Below are positions 4,261 to 33,621 of a stretch of DNA of 33,690 nt, in pieces. The notes beneath the pieces are model-generated. The model had not been told where the DNA came from. It worked only from the letters and a program-made list of their open reading frames with translations, and searched no databases. This DNA is from an uncultured Bacilli bacterium (lineage in GTDB: Bacteria > Bacillota_I > Bacilli_A > RF39 > UBA660). Made by a program: the position numbers and the translations under genes. Within the stretch, counting starts at the first letter, position 1; each line of letters opens with the position of its first letter. The stretch covers positions 1-33,690 of the forward strand of contig CANRAE010000005.1 of assembly GCA_947628525.1 (NCBI GenBank), in the 5' to 3' direction.

Positions 4261-4476
4261 CTAAACAAAATTCATTACTAAACTTACAACAAAGAAAACA
4301 AGCCCTAATGTCATAGTAATGCGACTAATCAATAATTCTACTCCGCGTTCTTTCCTTTGACTAAATAAATCAGCATTACCACCAGATATAATTTGTGAAG
4401 CACTCTCGGCTTTATTACTTTGTAACAAAACAATAGCAATTAATAATAATGATATGATTAGTAAAAAAATTTTCAT
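4261..4476 (-). CDS. secG: Preprotein translocase subunit SecG
   Basis: MKIFLLIISLLLIAIVLLQSNKAESASQIISGGNADLFSQRKERGVE...; RBS GGAGGG just upstream of the ATG at 4476. The 100-aa ORF in the track is over-extended. Confidence 0.9.
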   Translation of the reverse strand: MKIFLLIISLLLIAIVLLQSNKAESASQIISGGNADLFSQRKERGVELLISRITMTLGLVFFVVSLVMNFV

Positions 4477-4612: not shown

Positions 4613-5689
4613 CTATAACAACATATCAAATATCTTATCTAATTCATTATACCATACATTATTCCAATTTTCTTGTTTATACTTTTTTATATTTTCAATG
4701 TAATGTGGTATATTTTCATAAAAATTTTTAAACTCATTTTCAGAAAATTCTCTTATTCTATGACCCAAATTATACTTCTCCACCATCAGGCAATTATAGT
4801 GTTGCTCATATGTGTCTAACGGAAAAAGAAGCATAGGTAAATTACCATATAATGATTCACTTATTAATTGGTGACCGGAAGATGAAATAACAAAATATGC
4901 ATTTGAAAAATCTTCATCAAACGACAGACCAAACGGCTTGAAAACAAAATTATTATTTCCCTTGTATTCATCAAATTCAATATTTGTATAAATAACAAAT
5001 GTTATATCCGTACAATATTTTAACATTTCCAAAATTTGAATGAAATCGGTTTTATTATCAGAATATGGTGAAAAATAAACTATACCCTTTTTTACATCTA
5101 TATATTCTCTAACTATTGGTTTAATAATTGGCGGTAGTATGTATACATTGTCATTTGGCACATTGATTTTAAAAAACGATGAAATAATTCTATAATCAAC
5201 CTTAGGTGCAAAATATTTTAATCTAATAATATCTTCATTTATAGAATAATTTTCTATATTATAGTTTTCAATATACAAAAATTTGGATTGTTGTTCCATA
5301 CAAATAACTTTCGTTCCCGTCGCATAAGCATATTGAATAACATTAGGTTCATAGTCGCTAATAACTAAATCAAATTGAGGTTCTTTATTAAATATGTTTT
5401 GCAATTCAATAGAAAACTTTAAAAAAGATTCAAACTGATCAACTCTAGAATTTTTATATTTTAATAAACAATCAGCAAAATTGATTCCTTTATCTGTGCA
5501 AGAAATCCAAGGAATATCTATTGCAACAATTTTAATATTGGGGAAAATACTTTTTATTGTATTTATTTTATTCTTTGTTGTAGCAACAACTATTTCTACA
5601 TTCCTTGACATTAATAAATTAATTACATTTATTTGACGATTAATATGACCATTACCTATTCCACAAATTCCTATTAATACTCTTTTCAT
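4613..5689 (-). CDS. Glycosyltransferase, MurG/GT1-like (GT-B fold)
   Basis: N-terminal MKRVLIGICGIGNGHINRQINVINLL glycine-rich nucleotide-sugar-type start; FGLSFDEDFSNAYFVISSSGHQLISESLYGNLPMLLFPLDTYEQHYNC resembles the GT-B C-terminal donor site. RBS AGGAGC. Confidence 0.7.
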   Translation of the reverse strand: MKRVLIGICGIGNGHINRQINVINLLMSRNVEIVVATTKNKINTIKSIFPNIKIVAIDIPWISCTDKGINFADCLLKYKNSRVDQFESFLKFSIELQNIFNKEPQFDLVISDYEPNVIQYAYATGTKVICMEQQSKFLYIENYNIENYSINEDIIRLKYFAPKVDYRIISSFFKINVPNDNVYILPPIIKPIVREYIDVKKGIVYFSPYSDNKTDFIQILEMLKYCTDITFVIYTNIEFDEYKGNNNFVFKPFGLSFDEDFSNAYFVISSSGHQLISESLYGNLPMLLFPLDTYEQHYNCLMVEKYNLGHRIREFSENEFKNFYENIPHYIENIKKYKQENWNNVWYNELDKIFDMLL

Positions 5690-5697
5690 AAAAGCTC

Positions 5698-6660
5698 CTA
5701 TATTAACCTAATACTATGATTAGTTTCATCACAAACTAAATGTACTTTAGATCCATTAACAATAACAATTCTAGGCGAACTGTGTCCTAAATCAAAATTT
5801 TTAATATATGGAATATTAAGCTCCCCTAGTCCTCTTGTTATCGCCTCGTCAAGCGAAATGTCTGTATAACTTTCTTCTTCTGTTCTACCAAAAATCAAAC
5901 ATTTAGCATATTTAAACCATCCGGCGTTTCTTAAATGCCATAAACATCTAAATATAGTTTCATTACTCATATAGTTAATGTCAAAATACCAAATAGTTCC
6001 CTCTTCTTTATGATTTTCTATAAATTTGCAAGTACAATCATATTTAGTTCCTAACAAATCAATTAAGCATTCTAAATATCCGCCAATTATAATCCCTGTA
6101 ACATTAATATTACTGGTTGATAACCAACAACTGATTTCCTTTTCCCCTGATTCTCTCATTTTGTATTTAAAATCGTTTTGTATAATTTTATCTCCAAAAA
6201 GTAATTTGTAATTACTTGACAGTTCTTCAAAACTAGCTTGTTTTAAAGCTGCTGCATTATAAAAATAAATAGTCATAACATTATATTTAGTAGTTAATAT
6301 ATATAATAAAATAGTCATATCTGATTGTCCTTGCACCCATTTATAATTATCTATAATACAGTCTAAATTTACCTCATCAAGTAATTCAACTAAATAATCT
6401 CCACCAGTAACACCAACAATTAATTTTATCTGTTTATTTTTTATTAATTTTGTTAATTCTTTGGCTCTATCAGAAGCCGAACTACTCGTACCATTTACAC
6501 TTTTCCTAGTGTATTGGTCTTCTATGACATTTAACTTATTATTTTGGAACCATTTTATTACCTCATCTAAATCATGTATTTTATTTTTTTTCACTATACC
6601 ATTAGATGGTGATGCAATGGATATACTATCCCCCACTTGTAAATATTTTGGAATAATCAT
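5698..6660 (-). CDS. S66-family peptidase (LD-carboxypeptidase / microcin C immunity MccF-like)
   Basis: LQVGDSISIASPSNG; ASDRAKELTKLIKNKQIKLIVGVTGGDYLVELLDEVNLDCI; VQGQSDMT nucleophile region; IIIGGYLECLIDLLGT; FDLGHSSPRIVIVNGSKVHL His region. Confidence 0.85.
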   Translation of the reverse strand: MIIPKYLQVGDSISIASPSNGIVKKNKIHDLDEVIKWFQNNKLNVIEDQYTRKSVNGTSSSASDRAKELTKLIKNKQIKLIVGVTGGDYLVELLDEVNLDCIIDNYKWVQGQSDMTILLYILTTKYNVMTIYFYNAAALKQASFEELSSNYKLLFGDKIIQNDFKYKMRESGEKEISCWLSTSNINVTGIIIGGYLECLIDLLGTKYDCTCKFIENHKEEGTIWYFDINYMSNETIFRCLWHLRNAGWFKYAKCLIFGRTEEESYTDISLDEAITRGLGELNIPYIKNFDLGHSSPRIVIVNGSKVHLVCDETNHSIRLI

Positions 6661-6672
6661 TTTATCCCTCCC

Positions 6673-8019
6673 CTATAATACCTTTTGAAAAAGTTTAGTA
6701 TCAGATACATTCAAACTATTTAAACACTTTGCTGTGAACTCATAATACAATTCGCCTAAAGGCTGATATTCATTTAAATTGTTGTTAAATTCATGCGAAA
6801 CAGAATATAGATATCTTAATAATTTGCTAATATCTCCAAATGTCACAGCCTTATCAATAACTTGATTAACTAGTGCCATGTTGCTTAATAATTTGCAATT
6901 ATAAATAGTACCATTTCTAGCAATTCTTTTAGCATTTTGTAATCCTTTATATATTTCACCCCAAAAATTTATCTTAAAATATTCGGGATTTTCAAAATCT
7001 ATAATCGTATCATTACTATTTGCAATAATTATAAACTTTATTAAATCTCTTGCGTTTATAAACTGGGAATCAACTTTAATATCATTATCTTTTACTAGAG
7101 AAAATAAGTTGCGGGACCACTCTTCTATATTCCTAGAATCAGCATTTTTACATAAACTATAAGTCAAATAAGAAACATCACAATTTAAATTATTAATATG
7201 AACAACATCTAAAACCTTCTTTATATGTTCAGACTGATTAGAACCAATTATATTTATAATTTTACTGTTTTTATATTGATTATTTAATATAAACATAAAT
7301 TCCTGTAAAACATATTTTATCTCGCCATTAGACTTAAAAGCATCTTCATACGTTAATTTTTTTACTATATTGTATAATTCTTGATCAGCATATAACTGAG
7401 ATTCCAACAAATAACTGTTATCGGATAATAATAACTGTTTAAAATAATTCTCTATAATATTTAAACTTTCATAACAAAAAGACAAATATGCTAAAACATT
7501 TTTATTATCTTGATTATCATAATGAAAAACTGAGCTATATATTAAATTAAATAATGCCTCATTATTGGTATTAGTTTGACTATTTACAAAATGCTTAATG
7601 GATTTTTCTGAAATATTACCAACTGTAAAAATATTATTTTTTTTTCCACTTGTTTTAATGATATTAACAAGGGCTTTATCAATTATAATATTTCTTAATT
7701 GTCCTAACATAGGAATAGGCTTATTAGGATGTAAGTCCCCATACCTTATAGTGAAATTGTCATCATAAATTGGTTTATCGTTTAAAAAATTATATATTTC
7801 TGCTAGACAAACATCTTTGCTAATTTGGAAATGAGGATAACCATTTACAAAATTACAATTTTTGTAATTAGAATTAGGTTTAGTAATGGAAAATGATGAT
7901 AATCCATCTTTTTCAAAATATATAAGTTGTGAACCATCATATTTATATTGATCAATTAAATAATCTTTTAGAAAAGATTTGTATGCTCCCAAAATTTTAT
8001 TTTTACTACTAATCATCAT
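6673..8019 (-). CDS. Divergent arginyl-tRNA synthetase-like protein, apparently lacking a canonical HIGH motif
   Basis: HPNKPIPMLGQLRNIIIDKALVNIIKTSGKK parallels ArgRS (S)PNxxKPLHxGHLRNxxIGDALARIL; NIIGSNQSEHIKKVLDVV parallels ArgRS VxGAdQxxHFxQlf; FIIIANSNDTIIDFE and LLRYLYSVSHEFNNNLNE parallel the post-KMSKS and DALR regions. Confidence 0.7.
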   Translation of the reverse strand: MMISSKNKILGAYKSFLKDYLIDQYKYDGSQLIYFEKDGLSSFSITKPNSNYKNCNFVNGYPHFQISKDVCLAEIYNFLNDKPIYDDNFTIRYGDLHPNKPIPMLGQLRNIIIDKALVNIIKTSGKKNNIFTVGNISEKSIKHFVNSQTNTNNEALFNLIYSSVFHYDNQDNKNVLAYLSFCYESLNIIENYFKQLLLSDNSYLLESQLYADQELYNIVKKLTYEDAFKSNGEIKYVLQEFMFILNNQYKNSKIINIIGSNQSEHIKKVLDVVHINNLNCDVSYLTYSLCKNADSRNIEEWSRNLFSLVKDNDIKVDSQFINARDLIKFIIIANSNDTIIDFENPEYFKINFWGEIYKGLQNAKRIARNGTIYNCKLLSNMALVNQVIDKAVTFGDISKLLRYLYSVSHEFNNNLNEYQPLGELYYEFTAKCLNSLNVSDTKLFQKVL

Positions 8020-8728
8020 TTAAATCACCATCAATATAAATTCTTAAAACTGGAATTTTTATATTACCATACAAATACTTAATTACGCTTGCTCTATGCT
8101 GACCATCCCTTATATAAGGTTCATCATTATATAAAATAATGTATTTCCCTAGGTATGGATAGCCATTTTTTTTAATACTTGATAAAGTTTCCATAAGTCT
8201 ATCATAATCGCTGTCTATTAAATGATTTGAATTAAAAGGTGTGTAAATTACGCATTCACTACCTTTTTGTAAAGCTTTATAACTTTCTGAACATTCCAAA
8301 GGTACAGGGTTACTATTTTTTCTTAATAACATAAAATCATTAACTTCTATTTCATCTACTTTTGTATTAGTTATTCTCGGAATAAATTCATATAAAAATA
8401 ATGACATATATATTGGATCAATTAGTTTATAATTATAACCAATTGGGTAATTCTTTTCAAGAAAAGAATAAATTTCCTCCACAAGTATATTTAATTCAAC
8501 ATTAGACAATACCAAAGTTTCACTATTAAATGTAAAATTTATTCTTTCATAGCATTTTTCGATTTTAAAATTTTTCATTTGATTCAAAGTAAAATTATTA
8601 AGATATTTATTTTTATTTTGCATATATTCTATCTCACTATAACATCTTAATATGATTGAAATTACATGGATAAAATCAATTTCATTTATCTTGTTTTTCT
8701 CTTTAATCCAACATATTTTTTCAAACAT
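8009..8728 (-). CDS. ParB/Srx-like domain protein (DGQHR motif)
   Basis: C-terminal part LGKYIILYNDEPYIRDGQHRASVIKYLYGNIKIPVLRI is ParB N-terminal/Srx-like. Start at 8728 (MFEKICWIKE) supported by RBS AAGGAGG. Confidence 0.65.
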   Translation of the reverse strand: MFEKICWIKEKNKINEIDFIHVISIILRCYSEIEYMQNKNKYLNNFTLNQMKNFKIEKCYERINFTFNSETLVLSNVELNILVEEIYSFLEKNYPIGYNYKLIDPIYMSLFLYEFIPRITNTKVDEIEVNDFMLLRKNSNPVPLECSESYKALQKGSECVIYTPFNSNHLIDSDYDRLMETLSSIKKNGYPYLGKYIILYNDEPYIRDGQHRASVIKYLYGNIKIPVLRIYIDGDLNDD

Positions 8729-8802
8729 AACTCCCTCCTTGATTAACAAAAACTAATATCTTAAATAAAAAAGGTGACTTATAGCACAATATTAATGACA
8801 CT

Positions 8803-9010: not shown

Positions 9011-11591
<2,581 letters not shown>

Positions 11592-11725: not shown

Positions 11726-12982
11726 ATGAATATTGTAAAACTTAATGAATATGAATTTGATAAATTTTCAAAAACACATAAATATCATAGTTATTACCAA
11801 ACTTCTTCTTATGCTAAATTAATGGAAAAATCAGGTCTTAAACCATTATATTTAGGATTTTATGATAATAATAATATGGTGGGAGCTACTTTAATTTTAG
11901 CTAAAAATGTTTTAATGGGTTTCAAATATGGATATGCTCCAAGAGGTTTATTAATCGATTATGAAAAATTTTCACAGTTAACAGAAATTACAATGGAACT
12001 TAAAAATTATTTATTTAAAGATCGTTATATTTTATTAAAAATAGATCCTTTAATAGTAATTAATGAGAAAGATAAAAAGGGAAATATTTTATATAGTTAC
12101 AATAATTTAGATAATTTAATTAATAAATTAAATGATATAGGTTATCATCATTGTGGTTTCAATCAATTTTTTGAATCGATCAAGCCAAGATGGAATGCTT
12201 CTATTGATCTAAGTGAGGATATTAATACTGCATACAAAAAATATAATAAGCAAATAAGAACTAAAATTAGAAAAGCTAATAAATTTGGAGTTACTGCTTA
12301 CAAAGATAACAATGCTATTGACAAAATATATTCTTTTATAGAAAAAAATGGGACATATTCGATTGATTATTATTATAATTTAAGAAAAGAATTTGGTGAT
12401 GATATTGAAGTTTATGTAACCAATTTAAATACTTCTGTTTATGTTGAGGGAAGTAGATTATTATATGAAAAAGAGTTAGAGTATAACGATTATTTAAATA
12501 ATATTATTTCAAGAGACAACTACAAAGGAAAAAACATGAAAGATATTTTAAATAAAAAGATGGAATCAGATAAGATGTTAGTTTCTTATAAAAATTATAT
12601 GATTAAAGCTACTGATTTATTTAAAGAATATCCCGAAGGGTTAATTATTGGTGGGGCAGTATTAATCAAAGATAATGATATCCTTCGTTTATTAATTGAA
12701 GGATATGATCATGATTATGGCAATTTATGTCCATTATATTTATTAAAATGGGAAATTATTAAAGAATATAATCAATCACAATATAAAGAGTTTGATCTAA
12801 ATGCCATTGTTGGTGATCATGATAAAAATAATCCTTATTATGGATTAAACGAAGCCAAATTAGGATATAATGCCGTTAGTCGTGAATATATAGGAGAATT
12901 TAATTTAATAATTAATAATCCAATGTATGCATTATATAAAAGCATTCAAGCAAATGATTCATTTAAAGATATTAAAAAATAA
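11726..12982 (+). CDS. FemAB/FemX-family peptidoglycan bridge aminoacyltransferase
   Basis: HSYYQTSSYAKLMEKSGLKPLYLGFYD...YGYAPRGLLIDYE...RWNASIDLSEDINTAYKKYNKQIRTKIRKANKFGV...YLLKWEIIKEYNQSQYKEFDLNAIVGD is typical FemAB; RBS AAGGAGG. Confidence 0.9.
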   Translation: MNIVKLNEYEFDKFSKTHKYHSYYQTSSYAKLMEKSGLKPLYLGFYDNNNMVGATLILAKNVLMGFKYGYAPRGLLIDYEKFSQLTEITMELKNYLFKDRYILLKIDPLIVINEKDKKGNILYSYNNLDNLINKLNDIGYHHCGFNQFFESIKPRWNASIDLSEDINTAYKKYNKQIRTKIRKANKFGVTAYKDNNAIDKIYSFIEKNGTYSIDYYYNLRKEFGDDIEVYVTNLNTSVYVEGSRLLYEKELEYNDYLNNIISRDNYKGKNMKDILNKKMESDKMLVSYKNYMIKATDLFKEYPEGLIIGGAVLIKDNDILRLLIEGYDHDYGNLCPLYLLKWEIIKEYNQSQYKEFDLNAIVGDHDKNNPYYGLNEAKLGYNAVSREYIGEFNLIINNPMYALYKSIQANDSFKDIKK

Positions 12983-13062: not shown

Positions 13063-14127
13063 ATGGATGGAAATATGAAAACGGGAAACATAAATACTAT
13101 TGCTAAATGGGATTTAATAAATAATTGTTGGAATTATAATATTGATGATACTAATTTAGGTAAAAGTCTAGCTATTGCTAACTATACTCCTATTATTAAT
13201 AACGAAAAAGAAAAAATAAATTATATCATCATTGGTTATGGTTCTAGAGTTGAAGATCACTCAAAAGATAGTAAAACGATTAAAGAAAAAGAAGTCCGTA
13301 TAGATAACACTCTTAACTATTTTCAAAAACTAAATAGTAACTATAATATTAAACTATTCTTAATGGACGCTGATGCACCAATTATTGAAGATGCTAAGTT
13401 ATTAGCGCAATATATTGATTTATTGGCTAGCCAAGAAAATACCAATACAATAAATATTATCGCTCTTTCTAAGTGTGGTGCTATGAGTTTCTATATGCCA
13501 AGTTTTTTCAAAAATCCTTATTCCTTTCAAAAAACTAATATATTTAATGCCGCTACTCCTTACCGTGGAACAAAATTAGCATCGCCCTTAATTTTTTATC
13601 CTGAGGTAAAACAATTAGTTATTAATATGATTGGGGATCATAAATTAACCGACTTAATATACAAAAATCTAATCAAATTTTATGAAAGCATCAGCAGTAA
13701 TTCACACATGGATTATGATATAGCAGTTCCTAATGGTATACCCAAAGATAAATTAAACTGTTATGATTCATCATTTATACCAAACATATTTCAAGAAAAC
13801 AATATAAATGCCATCAAAAGAATCAATGGCTTTAAAAATATTGTAACAACCATAGATGATAAAACTTTTCGTGAAGCTGCTAAAACAATGAACTTTACAG
13901 GAATGGGATTATGTTTAATAAATAAAATATTTTTTGAAAATAAATCTGATGGTATGGTTTATTGTGAAGACCAGAAAAATGTCGAGAGTGTTTTAGATAT
14001 TCATAGTTATACTATAACTAGCCATCATTCTGTAAATACAAATATAAAAGCCTTTAATAATATATTAGATTTGGTTAACGATTCTATCGAAGAAGAAAAA
14101 GAGAAAAAATTATCATTAAAAATTTAA
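13063..14127 (+). CDS. Hypothetical protein, possible alpha/beta-hydrolase (lipase/esterase-like)
   Basis: INYIIIGYGSR... followed by INIIALSKCGAMSFYMPSFF (degenerate nucleophile elbow) and a late SDGMVYCED...HSYTITSHHSVNTN segment that could supply Asp/His. Confidence 0.45.
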   Translation: MDGNMKTGNINTIAKWDLINNCWNYNIDDTNLGKSLAIANYTPIINNEKEKINYIIIGYGSRVEDHSKDSKTIKEKEVRIDNTLNYFQKLNSNYNIKLFLMDADAPIIEDAKLLAQYIDLLASQENTNTINIIALSKCGAMSFYMPSFFKNPYSFQKTNIFNAATPYRGTKLASPLIFYPEVKQLVINMIGDHKLTDLIYKNLIKFYESISSNSHMDYDIAVPNGIPKDKLNCYDSSFIPNIFQENNINAIKRINGFKNIVTTIDDKTFREAAKTMNFTGMGLCLINKIFFENKSDGMVYCEDQKNVESVLDIHSYTITSHHSVNTNIKAFNNILDLVNDSIEEEKEKKLSLKI

Positions 14128-22436: not shown

Positions 22437-23381
22437 TTATTTATAAATACAATTATTATCAAATATTTTGACAAGATCTAAAACTTCTCTGCTTTTAGCA
22501 AGAACTTTATTTAATTTATATTTTTTAAATAAACGAGCATGAGATAATTGTTCTTCATCTTTTAAAATTTCATCTAATAATTTATTTAACTTTGAATAAC
22601 TTCCTTTTATATTAGTGATATTATCAAACCAAGAAGCAATATCATCGACATTTCCTTTAAAACGCAAATTTTCAACGGTAGGTATAAAGGTTTTATTTTT
22701 CATTAATTCTTGACAAATATAAGATTGAAAAAAGTAAGCATCTGATTTATAACCATTAGCATTAATATCATGTTTTAAAGTATATAAAGCATTGTTAAAT
22801 TCATGATTATTTATTTCATATTGATTAAAAGAATTAATAATATTAATAATATCTTCAGTCTGTTTAGTATTAATTATTTCTTCTAATGTTACATCCTGAC
22901 TTCTTTTTTGAACTTTGTTTAGTTCATTTTTTAAAAACACTGTATGACTCAATCCTGTACGTATAATTACTTCTTCATTATTCCATGTTATTTCATTTAA
23001 AACGGAATTGATAGCATGATTAAATTCATGGGCCAAATTATCTATTAACGCTACTAATGATGTATCATAATAGTCATTTAAAACTATTCTTTTTTCAGTA
23101 AAATATTTAATAATACCATCTTCATTTTTAGCTTTTATTTTTCGATCAAAGAAAGCAGTTACTACTTTGTCTTGATGATAATTAATTAAAATAGGAATAT
23201 CATCAAAGCATTTCAAAATAGTCCCTTCTTCTCTAATTCCATATTTAATAATAAAAGCAGGAACAATTAAATATAACACATGACGTACATTGTTAGGATA
23301 ATCTCTTCTGATACAAACACGTTCTACAAAATTAATATACTTATCTAAAAAAGCATTGATATTAGTTTGACTTAAATTCAT
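22437..23381 (-). CDS. Hypothetical protein with HExxH (HEFNH) motif, putative zinc metalloprotease-like
   Basis: LVALIDNLAHEFNHAINSVLNEITWNNEEVIIRTGLS: HEFNH in a helix-like context; no other recognised domain. Confidence 0.5.
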   Translation of the reverse strand: MNLSQTNINAFLDKYINFVERVCIRRDYPNNVRHVLYLIVPAFIIKYGIREEGTILKCFDDIPILINYHQDKVVTAFFDRKIKAKNEDGIIKYFTEKRIVLNDYYDTSLVALIDNLAHEFNHAINSVLNEITWNNEEVIIRTGLSHTVFLKNELNKVQKRSQDVTLEEIINTKQTEDIINIINSFNQYEINNHEFNNALYTLKHDINANGYKSDAYFFQSYICQELMKNKTFIPTVENLRFKGNVDDIASWFDNITNIKGSYSKLNKLLDEILKDEEQLSHARLFKKYKLNKVLAKSREVLDLVKIFDNNCIYK

Positions 23382-25829: not shown

Positions 25830-26690
25830 ATGGAAAACAAAGAATATGATCAAAAGACATTAAGAAAACTACAATTAATAGAATTAACCATTCTAAAAGA
25901 TTTTATATCCCTATGTCAAAAGCATAAACTACATTATTTTGCCCTTTGGGGAACTGCTATTGGGGCTTTAAGACATAAAGGTTTTATTCCATGGGATGAT
26001 GATATAGATGTTTGTTTAACTAGAAAAGAATATGACTTATTTTTAAAATATGCCAAAGAAGAATTAAGTGATAAATATGATATTTTAAATCAAGACACAA
26101 CCTTAGAATATCCACTTTTTTTTACAAGATTAATGCTTAAAAACACCACTTTTAAAACGATCGATGTTAAAGATATGAAATATAAACAAGGAATATATTT
26201 AGAAATATATGCTTTTGATAATATACCTGATGATGAATCTTTATATAAAAAGCAAGGAAAAAAAGTTTGGTTTTACTCCCATCTATTTATTATTCGAAAT
26301 GAAAAATTACCAATCATTAAAGGTAATAAAGTAAAAGTTTTCTTTATGCAAATAATTTGTTTCATACTACATTATCTATTAATAATATGTGGTATATCAA
26401 GAAAATTTATATATAATAAAACGATGCACTATTTAACAATGTATAACAATATCAAAACCAAAAGATGTGCTTATTTAACGGATATTAGTCCTTTTATTAA
26501 TACTATTAACTATAAAGATTTATTTCCTACTGTTTTATTAGACTTTGAAGATATAAAATTATCTTTTCCCAATAATATGCATCCATTAATGACAGATCAG
26601 TATGGTGATTATATTACTTTACCACCTATGGAACAAAGAAAAAATCATTATCCAATAGAATTAGATTTTGGTGAATATGATGAAAAATAA
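25830..26690 (+). CDS. LicD-family phosphotransferase
   Basis: LRKLQLIELTILKDFISLCQKHKLHYFALWGTAIGALRHKGFIPWDDDIDVCLTRKEYDLFL: canonical LicD motif. Confidence 0.93.
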   Translation: MENKEYDQKTLRKLQLIELTILKDFISLCQKHKLHYFALWGTAIGALRHKGFIPWDDDIDVCLTRKEYDLFLKYAKEELSDKYDILNQDTTLEYPLFFTRLMLKNTTFKTIDVKDMKYKQGIYLEIYAFDNIPDDESLYKKQGKKVWFYSHLFIIRNEKLPIIKGNKVKVFFMQIICFILHYLLIICGISRKFIYNKTMHYLTMYNNIKTKRCAYLTDISPFINTINYKDLFPTVLLDFEDIKLSFPNNMHPLMTDQYGDYITLPPMEQRKNHYPIELDFGEYDEK

Positions 26691-27855
26691 GACTTTATTT
26701 TGGAATTTTTTAAGTGGTCTTCTTTATGGCGCTAATACCTTTATTTTTTTATTAATTATTGCTACTTTTAAAAATGATATTGATAAAAATACTTTCTCAT
26801 TTATTCTTTCTTTGTCTTCGTTCATATATTTATTAGCCAGTATGGAAATGCGTGCTTTTCAAGTAGCTAACAAAGAATATTCATTTTCTTCATACTTATC
26901 TATCCGTTTTTTATCATCAACTATTACTTTATTAATATCTACCATTATTATTTATATAATTTATCAAAACAACGCATATTTAATGATTTTTTTACTATTT
27001 ATTTTACTAAAAGTAATAGAGGCAATGACCGAAGTAATAGAAGGAAATATGCACCAACATAACGATTTATTAGGTGCCTCTAAATCTTTATTTATAAGAA
27101 CTTTTTTAACTTTATTTGTATTTACTATAATTATATGGTTAAGACAAAACCTTTTTCTAGCAACTAGTACCATTGTGATTCTTAATATTATTTATTGCCT
27201 ATTGTTATATATTTGGGCAATAAAAAAAGAACAAATAAAATTGAACTTTCATGATTGTTATAATATTTTTCCTATATTAAAAAAATTAATACCTCTTACA
27301 ATTGGTTCTTGTTTATGGTTTTCGTTATTCTTTTTTCCTAAAATAAGATTAGAATTTATAGATAATAACTTACAATATATTTTAAATTGTTTAATTATAC
27401 CCTGTTCTTTCTTTAATTTAATTAGTAGCTTTTGTTTTAAAAATACTTTATTAATATTTAGAGATACCGTTAATGATCAAAAGTTATTTATTAAAAAAGT
27501 TAAGCACTATCTTATACTATTATTTTTAATATGTGTACCTCTTACAATAATAAGTTATTATTTAGGGATACCTCTATTAAGTTATTTATTTAAAGTATCT
27601 ATAAAAAAATACAATATGGCTTTTTTAATATTAATAATAAGTGGGGAACTAAACTTAATCAGTAATTTTTGTTATTATATGTTAGTTATTTTAAAAAAGC
27701 CTAGAACCATTTTACTAGGATATTTATTAAGTTTTATTATTTTAGTAACTTTATTAATATTATCTAATTCTCTTGTTAGTATTTGTTTATCTATATTAAT
27801 TGCCATGCTATGTAATTTATTATTTTTTATCTACCATATATTTAAAAATAGTTAA
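26677..27855 (+). CDS. Polytopic membrane protein, probable polysaccharide flippase (Wzx/MATE-like)
   Basis: About 12 hydrophobic segments; located between licD-like and licC-like genes. ORF-track start at 26668 is TTG; ATG at 26677 preferred. Confidence 0.65.
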   Translation: MMKNKTLFWNFLSGLLYGANTFIFLLIIATFKNDIDKNTFSFILSLSSFIYLLASMEMRAFQVANKEYSFSSYLSIRFLSSTITLLISTIIIYIIYQNNAYLMIFLLFILLKVIEAMTEVIEGNMHQHNDLLGASKSLFIRTFLTLFVFTIIIWLRQNLFLATSTIVILNIIYCLLLYIWAIKKEQIKLNFHDCYNIFPILKKLIPLTIGSCLWFSLFFFPKIRLEFIDNNLQYILNCLIIPCSFFNLISSFCFKNTLLIFRDTVNDQKLFIKKVKHYLILLFLICVPLTIISYYLGIPLLSYLFKVSIKKYNMAFLILIISGELNLISNFCYYMLVILKKPRTILLGYLLSFIILVTLLILSNSLVSICLSILIAMLCNLLFFIYHIFKNS

Positions 27856-28559
27856 AAGTATTTTCTTTTAGATAATTGCTTATTTTCAAACTTTTTAGCT
27901 ACTCTTTGATAATCATCAATATTATCAATTTCATCTACTTTATCACTATCTATATTGGTTTCAATCATATAAATCTCATTTAAAGAGTTAAAAACAACAT
28001 GGTCATAATATAAATGGGGATTTTCTAAATCACTAATAGATACTTTTTTTAAATTGTCTCTTAATATTTTGGCATCACTATTAATATAATAACTGATTCC
28101 AAACAAAGTGGGTCTATTTTCATTAGTTATATCAAAACCTATAATACGATCTTCTAAAAGTTGTAACGCCCATTCATTATTTGTTTTTTCTCTAATAACA
28201 GTATAATAAGTACTCTGATTATGTCTTTGAAAAATATTATCTAAAAGACAAACATCACTATCAATAACAAATGAATCATTTAATTTATCACTAGCTAATG
28301 ACAAAGAATAAATATTATTAAATTTTTTATAATAAGGATTATTAATTAAATGACAACCATATTTGTCTTTTAAATATTCAAATTGATCACCACAGAAACC
28401 CGTTACAATACTTATATCATTAATACCATTTTCTTTTAAATATTCAATAGTATATTCAATTAATGGTTTATTATTAAATAACAAAAGTGATTTTGGAGTG
28501 CTTTTAGTTAATGGATATAATCTAGTTGAACAACCTCCGGCTAAAATTATTGCATTCAT
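27852..28559 (-). CDS. Nucleotidyltransferase, LicC-like (CTP:phosphocholine cytidylyltransferase family)
   Basis: MNAIILAGGCSTRLYPLTKSTPKSLLLFNNKPLIEYTIEYLKENGINDISIVTGFCGDQFEYLKDKYG...YVIRE-like TYYTVIREKTNNEWAL...; layout closely follows pneumococcal LicC as I recall it. Confidence 0.82.
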   Translation of the reverse strand: MNAIILAGGCSTRLYPLTKSTPKSLLLFNNKPLIEYTIEYLKENGINDISIVTGFCGDQFEYLKDKYGCHLINNPYYKKFNNIYSLSLASDKLNDSFVIDSDVCLLDNIFQRHNQSTYYTVIREKTNNEWALQLLEDRIIGFDITNENRPTLFGISYYINSDAKILRDNLKKVSISDLENPHLYYDHVVFNSLNEIYMIETNIDSDKVDEIDNIDDYQRVAKKFENKQLSKRKYF

Positions 28560-28664
28560 AAACATTATCCCCTTTCACATTATAACTTATATAAAATTTC
28601 TTTTCAATAAACCAATTTACTTTTTACCAAAATAACGATATACTCTAATAAAATGAGGTGCTTT

Positions 28665-32258: not shown

Positions 32259-33533
32259 CTATAATGTATCTGCAAGACAAAACAAAGCATAAATAGGTAT
32301 ATAGCGAACACCTTTTTTCAAACTGAAATTATCTTCGGTAATACGTATAGCATCTTTTACTTTAAATTTATTCATAAAAAGGGTAAGAGCTTTGGATTTA
32401 GAAATATTTTTATTTACTAACTCTATGGGAATAATTCTACCTGCTCTTGTCTGAATTATAAAATTTACTTCTGCTTTGCCTTCTGATTGATAATAATATA
32501 ATCCATATCCATTACTAATTAAATTAATAGCAATACAATTTTCATATATAATGTTTTTAATAGAATAATCATTTAAGAACTTGTTTCTATTCAAATGCAT
32601 TTGATAAAACAAAACACCTGTATCATTCATATATAACTTAAAACTCTCAGGATCTTTACAAGAACTAAGGGGCGACTTAACTTCACTTATTTTATAACAT
32701 TTATAAGCAATGTTATTATTATGTAAAAAAGAAATGGCTTTGTCAAAATCTTTTGATCTACTACCTAACTTAATTAATCCATATTGAAATTTACGATTTT
32801 GTTTTTGTAATTGAAAGGGAATGCTATCTAGTACCTCATTACATCTACTAATATCTATCAAATTATCCATTGTTCCTATTTCTTTTTTATAACAATCTAA
32901 TACTTTCGCATATACTGGTAAAGTTAATAAAGTGTTTTTTTCTGACAATTTAATATTAACTGCTTCGGGCATTCCACCAGTCATAATGAAGTCATCAAAA
33001 TATTCCATGGCTAGTGTATGAAAAGGCATAGGTGTATTATTTTTAAAAGAAGTCTTAATAAAATCTATTAATTGTTGATTTCCCATAGATAATAAATATT
33101 CTTCAAAATCAAGTGGAAACATTGCTTTGTAATGAAATTCTTCACCTTTAAAAGTATTTAAATTATCTTTTTTAGATGTAATCATAATAATATGATAATT
33201 ATTATCAAACTTTCCAAATACCCTAAGACCATTAACTATTACTGGATCATCAACATTATCAAATATTATTAATGTATCATTAGCCATAATAGTTTCATTA
33301 GATAAAAGAGATAATTTCGTAATAATACGATCAATAGTTTTCTCTTTACTTAAAAGACTTACAAGTTCTAAATTATTATCACAATTAAAATAAGCAACAT
33401 TCTTATATTCTTCTTCCCCAAATTTTAAAGCCGTATAAGTTTTCCCTACTTGTTTATTTCCGTATATCAAAAGTGGTTTTCTAGTTACATCTTTTTTCCA
33501 ACGCATTAAATAAGTATTTATTTTTCGTTCCAT
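32259..33533 (-). CDS. ATP-binding protein, AAA_14 plus DUF4143-type
   Basis: RWKKDVTRKPLLIYGNKQVGKTYTALKFGEEEYKNVAYFNCD (Walker A), TLIIFDNVD (Walker B), FPLDFEEYLLSMG, FIMTGGMPEAVN, C-terminal nuclease-like GLYYYQSEGKAEVNFIIQTRAGRIIPIEL. RBS AGGAGG before 33533. Confidence 0.88.
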   Translation of the reverse strand: MERKINTYLMRWKKDVTRKPLLIYGNKQVGKTYTALKFGEEEYKNVAYFNCDNNLELVSLLSKEKTIDRIITKLSLLSNETIMANDTLIIFDNVDDPVIVNGLRVFGKFDNNYHIIMITSKKDNLNTFKGEEFHYKAMFPLDFEEYLLSMGNQQLIDFIKTSFKNNTPMPFHTLAMEYFDDFIMTGGMPEAVNIKLSEKNTLLTLPVYAKVLDCYKKEIGTMDNLIDISRCNEVLDSIPFQLQKQNRKFQYGLIKLGSRSKDFDKAISFLHNNNIAYKCYKISEVKSPLSSCKDPESFKLYMNDTGVLFYQMHLNRNKFLNDYSIKNIIYENCIAINLISNGYGLYYYQSEGKAEVNFIIQTRAGRIIPIELVNKNISKSKALTLFMNKFKVKDAIRITEDNFSLKKGVRYIPIYALFCLADTL

Positions 33534-33621
33534 AAAATGACCTCCTATCACAATTATATACAATGTAATTATATTATTTTATTTATAACAAGTCAATATA
33601 CTGTCAATTTGTGCAAGAAAA

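Follow-up and report, generated by a model that had tools for sequence, protein, structure and literature searches.

A very probable arginyl-tRNA synthetase paralogue lacking its catalytic motifs is encoded beside an MccF-like hydrolase in an inserted four-gene cassette

The ORF at 6673..8019 on the minus strand encodes an intact protein of 448 aa (P0001) that, as judged from sequence comparison, is very probably a highly diverged paralogue of arginyl-tRNA synthetase (ArgRS). Neither the HIGH motif nor the KMSK-equivalent loop by which a functional class I ArgRS is recognized was found in P0001 or in its homologue from another genus, P0011, and the loss of the ATP motifs is evident from the alignments. 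The gene is the second of four in a cassette that also encodes an S66 (MccF-like) hydrolase. We tentatively favor, at slightly less than an even chance, a model in which the paralogue is an aminoacyl-tRNA-dependent transferase that loads an amino acid onto a scaffold, from which the S66 enzyme removes it. The whole stretch of DNA analyzed (the window, 33,690 nucleotides) is contig C5 of a low-GC draft genome of 1.26 Mb (G000), from a Firmicute of gut or rumen type. The sequence-only reading had described the frame as open throughout and kept in an operon, which was borne out, and the separate canonical argS that it left to be confirmed was located elsewhere in the host genome (G000:C27).

The only relevant Pfam match of P0001 was DALR_1 (E=0.013, residues 375-417), which was below the gathering score. 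No match was obtained in NCBIfam, and no ArgRS was found when PDB chain sequences were searched with P0001. A local ArgRS HMM detected neither P0001 nor P0011, which reflects the extent of the divergence and weakens the case for ArgRS ancestry. A set of ten canonical ArgRS from related genomes was used as the reference for BLASTP and hhalign. The best BLASTP alignment, obtained without composition correction against the ArgRS of a relative, was colinear over residues 19-427 with 20% identity and 43.9 bits; this score was reached by none of 1000 shuffles (maximum 38.9) and by no other ORF among the 87 compared (maximum 33.1). The two-sequence profile of P0001 and P0011 aligned colinearly with the ten ArgRS over 388 columns in hhalign (E=0.0028), and with the GluRS and GlnRS profiles gave only short, out-of-order matches. 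The KxNGxxxYxxx[DE] block arose by chance in 30 of 20000 shuffles. P0011 on its own gave no significant match to ArgRS. By these comparisons, the similarity of P0001 to ArgRS exceeds chance. The ancestry of P0001 is argued from colinearity, motif blocks, and the analogy with P0005, the synthetase-like protein of a third cassette; on the sequences compared, synthetase ancestry is probable for P0001 and certain for P0005. The diverged ArgRS paralogue proposed by the sequence-only reading thus found support. Of the profile and structure check it had outlined, the profile part gave the colinear alignment with a substituted HIGH loop, whereas the fold was not confirmed: the AlphaFold2 model of the ArgRS-like pair, built on the two-sequence alignment, had a mean pLDDT of 37.6, and Foldseek gave no usable matches with it.

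Positions of the lost and retained active-site blocks, all on the minus strand, were taken from hhalign against the ten canonical ArgRS and a motif table. The HIGH-equivalent loop YGDLHPNKPIPMLGQLRN (residues 93-110, 7690..7743) aligned to YGGxNVAKxLHVGHLRS of canonical ArgRS. The HVGH of the relatives was replaced with P-M-L-G-Q, so that P and Q stand in place of the two histidines and the loop is longer by one residue, and P0011 showed the same loss, with P-K-L-G-Q. At the KMSK-equivalent GADGKPFKTR position, the lysines were lost from CKNADSRNIEEW (residues 290-301, 7117..7152), the GKPFKTR loop of the relatives being RNIEEWS in P0001 and NDYGEWS in P0011; CKNADSRNIEEWS of P0001 aligned to VNGADGKPFKTRDG of ArgRS. 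Several other blocks were retained. The Arg-pocket block KSNGEIKYVLQE (residues 229-240, 7300..7335) corresponded to KSNGxxxYxTTDLA, and GSNQSEHIKKV (residues 259-269, 7213..7245) corresponded to DNRQxLHFEQV. VNGYPHFQIS aligned to the end of the Add-1 domain (VNGYLNLTIS in L030), and the DALR-like C-terminal, anticodon-binding segment (6769..6897) was placed by the sub-threshold Pfam match and the colinear hhalign alignment. The motifs quoted in the sequence-only reading, namely HPNKPIPMLGQLRN (residues 97-110), NGYPHFQISKD, IINIIGSNQSEHIKKV, and the C-terminal DALR-like stretch, were all present in the ORF, and its claims that both HIGH histidines were replaced, that a KMSK-like loop was missing, and that a DALR-like tail remained agreed with these alignments.

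The YxTTD block of P0001 kept its Tyr and acidic residue, and the Gln and the His were kept as well; following the yeast ArgRS structure, we take these residues to bind the side chain and the alpha-amino group of arginine. The Lys before the HIGH loop and the Gly of that loop were also kept. The acidic residue opening the DYGG block, presumably the binder of the arginine guanidinium, was replaced with Arg in both ArgRS-like proteins (Arg92 in P0001). The loaded amino acid may therefore not be arginine, and arginine specificity is uncertain.

The whole cassette (4613..8749, minus strand) lies between eno (9023-10252) and secG (4261-4476), and its order is DGQHR/ParB-like, ArgRS-like, S66 hydrolase, and MJ1255-family glycosyltransferase (GT). 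All four genes are on the same strand, and their coding regions overlap or are 8-12 bp apart. In the four congeners G001-G004, the cassette was absent and eno, secG, and rnr were contiguous; alignment of the flanks showed that congener homology ended just past eno and resumed at the secG promoter region. By this alignment, the cassette is an insertion into an otherwise empty site; it is presumably mobile. No recombinase was found inside the insert in the host genome.

Gene 1 (8009..8728, minus strand) encodes the DGQHR/ParB-like core protein, which is 45% and 41% identical to P0007 and P0009, its counterparts in the two other cassettes. The listed start is a TTG at 8749; the ATG at 8728, behind AAGGAGGG, is the likely one. 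PYIRDGQHR was invariant across the gene 1 proteins of the three cassettes, and the only matches, to DndB (Pfam, E=0.025) and ParB, were sub-threshold. The AlphaFold2 model of the trio had a pLDDT of 57.3 and was poor in the DGQHR half, and Foldseek gave no usable fold match. In SerK and SbnI, the ParB fold is an ATP-binding module serving an enzymatic activity, that of serine kinases (PMC12704722); by analogy with these, we would guess that gene 1 encodes a small-molecule kinase. Gene 3 (5698..6660, minus strand) contains both S66 domains (PF02016, 1.7e-22; PF17676, 4.7e-20), and its best PDB match was MccF 3sr3 (4.6e-19). In the alignment with MccF, at the positions that we take to form the Ser-Glu-His triad, S113 and H293 were kept and the Glu was replaced with Asp (D227); W180 aligned to a Trp of Bacillus anthracis MccF. 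Gene 4 (4613..5689, minus strand) is the second core gene, encoding the MJ1255-family GT (Glyco_trans_1_3, 3.5e-25), with a TIGR00661 match of 1.2e-24 below the curated cut-off.

Other genes of the window were also inspected. A FemAB-family protein (11726-12982, plus strand; Pfam 1.6e-58), a member of an aminoacyl-tRNA-dependent ligase family, is encoded approximately 3 kb from the cassette. Its neighbor MurD was also seen at the eno locus in G001, G003, and G004, so a connection with the insert is improbable; the G002 contig begins inside eno. The ORFs at 13063-14127 (plus strand, 354 aa) and 22437-23381 (minus strand, 314 aa) had no Pfam match. A LicD-family protein and a nucleotidyltransferase are encoded at 25830-28565 close to glycosyltransferase-like genes and may reflect phosphocholine-type modification of surface glycans, and an AAA_14/DUF4143 ATPase is encoded at 32259-33563 (minus strand).

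Convincing DGQHR and GT genes were detected in three of the 389 family genomes, namely the host genome, G038, and G390. Three intact cassettes and one remnant, in G055, are thus known. The order in G390 is DGQHR, GT, ArgRS-like, and S66, and its ArgRS-like protein is P0011, which is 35-36% identical to P0001 and has all the pocket blocks and the same motif losses. The existence of this equally intact orthologue with the same blocks in another genus lends weight to the earlier suggestion of selection rather than decay. A large serine recombinase (L016:2675-4330), whose best matches were CcrC, CcrB, and XisF, below their cut-offs, is encoded directly downstream of the G390 cassette and is a candidate agent of its mobility. 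The order in G038 is synthetase-like, S66, DGQHR, and GT, with P0005, a GluRS paralogue (Pfam 2.3e-13; gltX 1.3e-24; hhalign 1.1e-9 over 294 columns), as the synthetase-like protein. P0005 has PSEAPFRIT in place of PTGxxHIG and no KLSKR, and it keeps SDGxxxYNF, IIRG, and DDTN. Thus, the catalytic motifs were lost in all three synthetase-like proteins, and the HIGH loop was one residue longer than the canonical one in P0005 as well as in the ArgRS-type proteins. In G055, a decayed ArgRS-like/S66 remnant (L011:110-323, on G055:C30, minus strand) lies between polC and the contig end; it comprises the last ~64 residues of the ArgRS-like protein and an overlapping S66-like start that soon hits a stop.

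Comparison of the cassettes demonstrated that the DGQHR and GT proteins of G038 and G390 were 71% and 59% identical, whereas their S66 proteins shared only 25% identity and their synthetases were GluRS-like and ArgRS-like, respectively. The cores of the host genome and G390 were more distant (41% and 46%), with 35% identity of the ArgRS-like proteins and 38% of the S66 proteins. The S66 of the GluRS-type cassette was closest to generic MccF-like/LD-carboxypeptidase proteins, and the replacement of the triad Glu with Asp was common to the S66 of both ArgRS-type cassettes. The synthetase gene was followed directly by the S66 gene in all three intact cassettes and in the G055 remnant. The combination of close cores with unlike synthetases and hydrolases suggested that these two genes were exchanged as a pair, and the simplest reading of the three cassettes is that the pair was swapped as a unit on a persisting core. 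Since the two enzymes change together while the rest stays, they should share the changed feature, plausibly the amino acid.

Only two full copies of the ArgRS-like protein, P0001 and P0011, are known. No full-length relative of P0001 was found in other genomes among the first 96 relatives searched, and the ArgRS-like gene was absent from the other searched genomes of the G390 genus. Scans of GTDB, which work by short peptide patterns and may overlook diverged relatives, returned no relative of P0001 and, with the DGQHR pair, a single record, that of G038, described as a MAG of a Bacilli bacterium from the reticulum of roe deer. Scans of IMG/VR of the same kind with the synthetase, DGQHR, and GT alignments yielded none, as did searches of PLSDB plasmids with P0001, P0007, P0008, and P0011 and of INPHARED phages with P0001; P0005 had only low-identity, gltX-type matches on plasmid records. 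Weak DGQHR matches in G098 and G047 were set aside because they lay inside long unrelated frames.

A synthetase that has lost its ATP motifs would hardly activate an amino acid by itself, yet it could retain the capacity to bind an aminoacyl-tRNA. The transferase model is favored because of the loss of these motifs, the MccF-type S66 partner, and three precedents. AcmF is an AlaRS-like protein without most ATP-binding residues; it takes Ala from Ala-tRNA and attaches it to a nucleoside sulfamate, from which the Ala is released by AcmE, encoded in the same cluster (PMC12945691). SbzA performs a comparable transfer with Ile in SB-203207 biosynthesis (PMC6331615), and cyclodipeptide synthases have lost HIGH and use aminoacyl-tRNA (PMC2922099). 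S66 enzymes of the MccF kind hydrolyze the amide bond that joins an amino acid to a nucleotide moiety (PMC9239234), and MccF accepts Asp and Glu but not Leu (PMC11241378). We infer the aminoacyl-tRNA donor, the nature of the acceptor, the direction of the S66 reaction, and the identity of the amino acid. In this model, P0001, a former ArgRS that has lost ATP activation of the amino acid, would take the amino acid from an aminoacyl-tRNA charged by the normal synthetase of the cell. The acceptor would be an amine or a comparable group on a small molecule, probably a scaffold of nucleoside or sugar type that the GT and the ParB-like protein make or tailor. The S66 enzyme would cut the aminoacyl bond again, for self-protection or activation, and the synthetase/S66 pair would set the amino acid, being ArgRS-derived here and GluRS-derived in G038. 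Several points count against this model. Only three intact cassettes and one remnant are known, and an exporter, a precursor peptide, and a nucleoside-making enzyme are all absent from the cassette. The Arg at the opening of the DYGG block, the Asp in the triad of the ArgRS-type S66, the generic affinity of the S66 from the GluRS-type cassette, and the low-confidence AlphaFold2 model likewise weigh against it.

An amino-acid ligase that depends on ATP, like MshC for mycothiol or BshC for bacillithiol, in which the GT builds a glycoside and the paralogue ligates the amino acid with its own nucleotide chemistry, was also considered. The coupling of a GT with a synthetase paralogue is the mycothiol arrangement (MshC: PMC9736012, PMC9437257), and the kept Lys and Gly at the HIGH loop agree with such a role; however, the ArgRS-like proteins lack the HIGH histidines and KMSK-equivalent lysines, the GluRS-like one lacks HIGH and KLSKR, and the cassette has no deacetylase gene, which makes a ligase unlikely. 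Somewhat unlikelier is a non-catalytic sensor or regulator of the other three genes, that is, a sensor of an amino acid or uncharged tRNA or a HisZ-like subunit. Persistence of the pocket blocks and the DALR-like segment after loss of the ATP motifs would suit it, but an ArgRS/GluRS swap that also involves S66 is more readily understood if both enzymes act on the same amino acid bond, and, the role of the ParB-like protein aside, the cassette encodes no recognizable transcription factor. The operon partners, the GluRS swap, and the co-exchanged S66, which the sequence-only reading did not mention, point to aminoacyl transfer in small-molecule chemistry over regulation.

The compact and sporadic cassette, with its varied neighborhoods, empty sites, and the recombinase adjoining the G390 copy, could also be an anti-phage or toxin-antitoxin system tampering with tRNA or nucleotides, and DGQHR proteins are known in Dnd systems too. 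A known defense system was rejected, since P0001-P0006 match no PADLOC model; this result and the lack of copies in the INPHARED, IMG/VR, and PLSDB searches render a defense role quite improbable. That P0001 is no synthetase relative and its motifs are a chance likeness in an AT-rich protein might be argued from the lack of a library model over threshold, the non-significance of P0011 alone, and the poor AlphaFold2 model. Such a coincidence is highly improbable given a full-length colinear alignment that beats all shuffles and decoys, a DALR segment in the right place, and the unambiguous GluRS paralogue that occupies this slot in an orthologous cassette. Least probable of all is an antibiotic-resistant spare synthetase that protects the host from an aaRS inhibitor, of the type present in producers of albomycin or indolmycin: such resistant spares are known (PMC9437257) and the paralogue does stand beside an MccF-like hydrolase, but a spare must be active, and the catalytic motifs are lost in all three proteins.

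Known synthetase paralogues that move an amino acid from aminoacyl-tRNA to a metabolite belong to single pathways with one amino acid each. Here, one four-gene frame holds a protein derived from either ArgRS or GluRS, and the hydrolase changes with it; no ArgRS-derived case was found in the open literature searched, although one may have been described. Whether the cassettes represent a mobile, amino-acid-programmable, and previously undescribed pathway is doubtful, although conceivable; in it, a GT and ParB-like core with a swappable pair of a motif-dead class I synthetase and its cognate S66 would produce nucleoside- or sugar-like metabolites bearing an amino acid, which might target the matching synthetase in competing organisms. 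If confirmed, the cassettes would be a natural scheme for exchanging the amino acid carried by a metabolite, and their comparison could show the effects of HIGH-loop loss.

Returning to the transferase model, several known systems resemble the cassette in part. In mycothiol biosynthesis, MshA and MshC likewise combine a glycosyltransferase with a synthetase paralogue; however, MshC is an ATP-using CysRS paralogue, and the other genes are unlike. MccF, the microcin C immunity protein (PMC9239234), belongs to the family of gene 3 and is its best solved-structure match, whereas both ArgRS-type S66 proteins have Asp for the catalytic Glu, the amino acid partner differs, and microcin C genes are absent near the cassette. 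Cyclodipeptide synthases are class I synthetase derivatives that have lost HIGH and use aminoacyl-tRNA, but they derive from a TyrRS/TrpRS-like domain, are small, and have no anticodon-binding domain. SbzA (IleRS-like) is a class I synthetase paralogue in a gene cluster with a canonical copy elsewhere in the genome; it differs in keeping slightly modified, near-intact HIGH and KMSKS motifs plus the editing domain, which counts against the model. The AcmF/AcmE pair of ascamycin biosynthesis also places a synthetase paralogue without ATP-binding residues beside a de-aminoacylating hydrolase. However, AcmF is of class II (AlaRS), AcmE is an alpha/beta hydrolase, and a second, active AlaRS (AcmD) is present in the cluster, whereas the cassette joins a class I (ArgRS or GluRS) paralogue and an S66 hydrolase within four genes.
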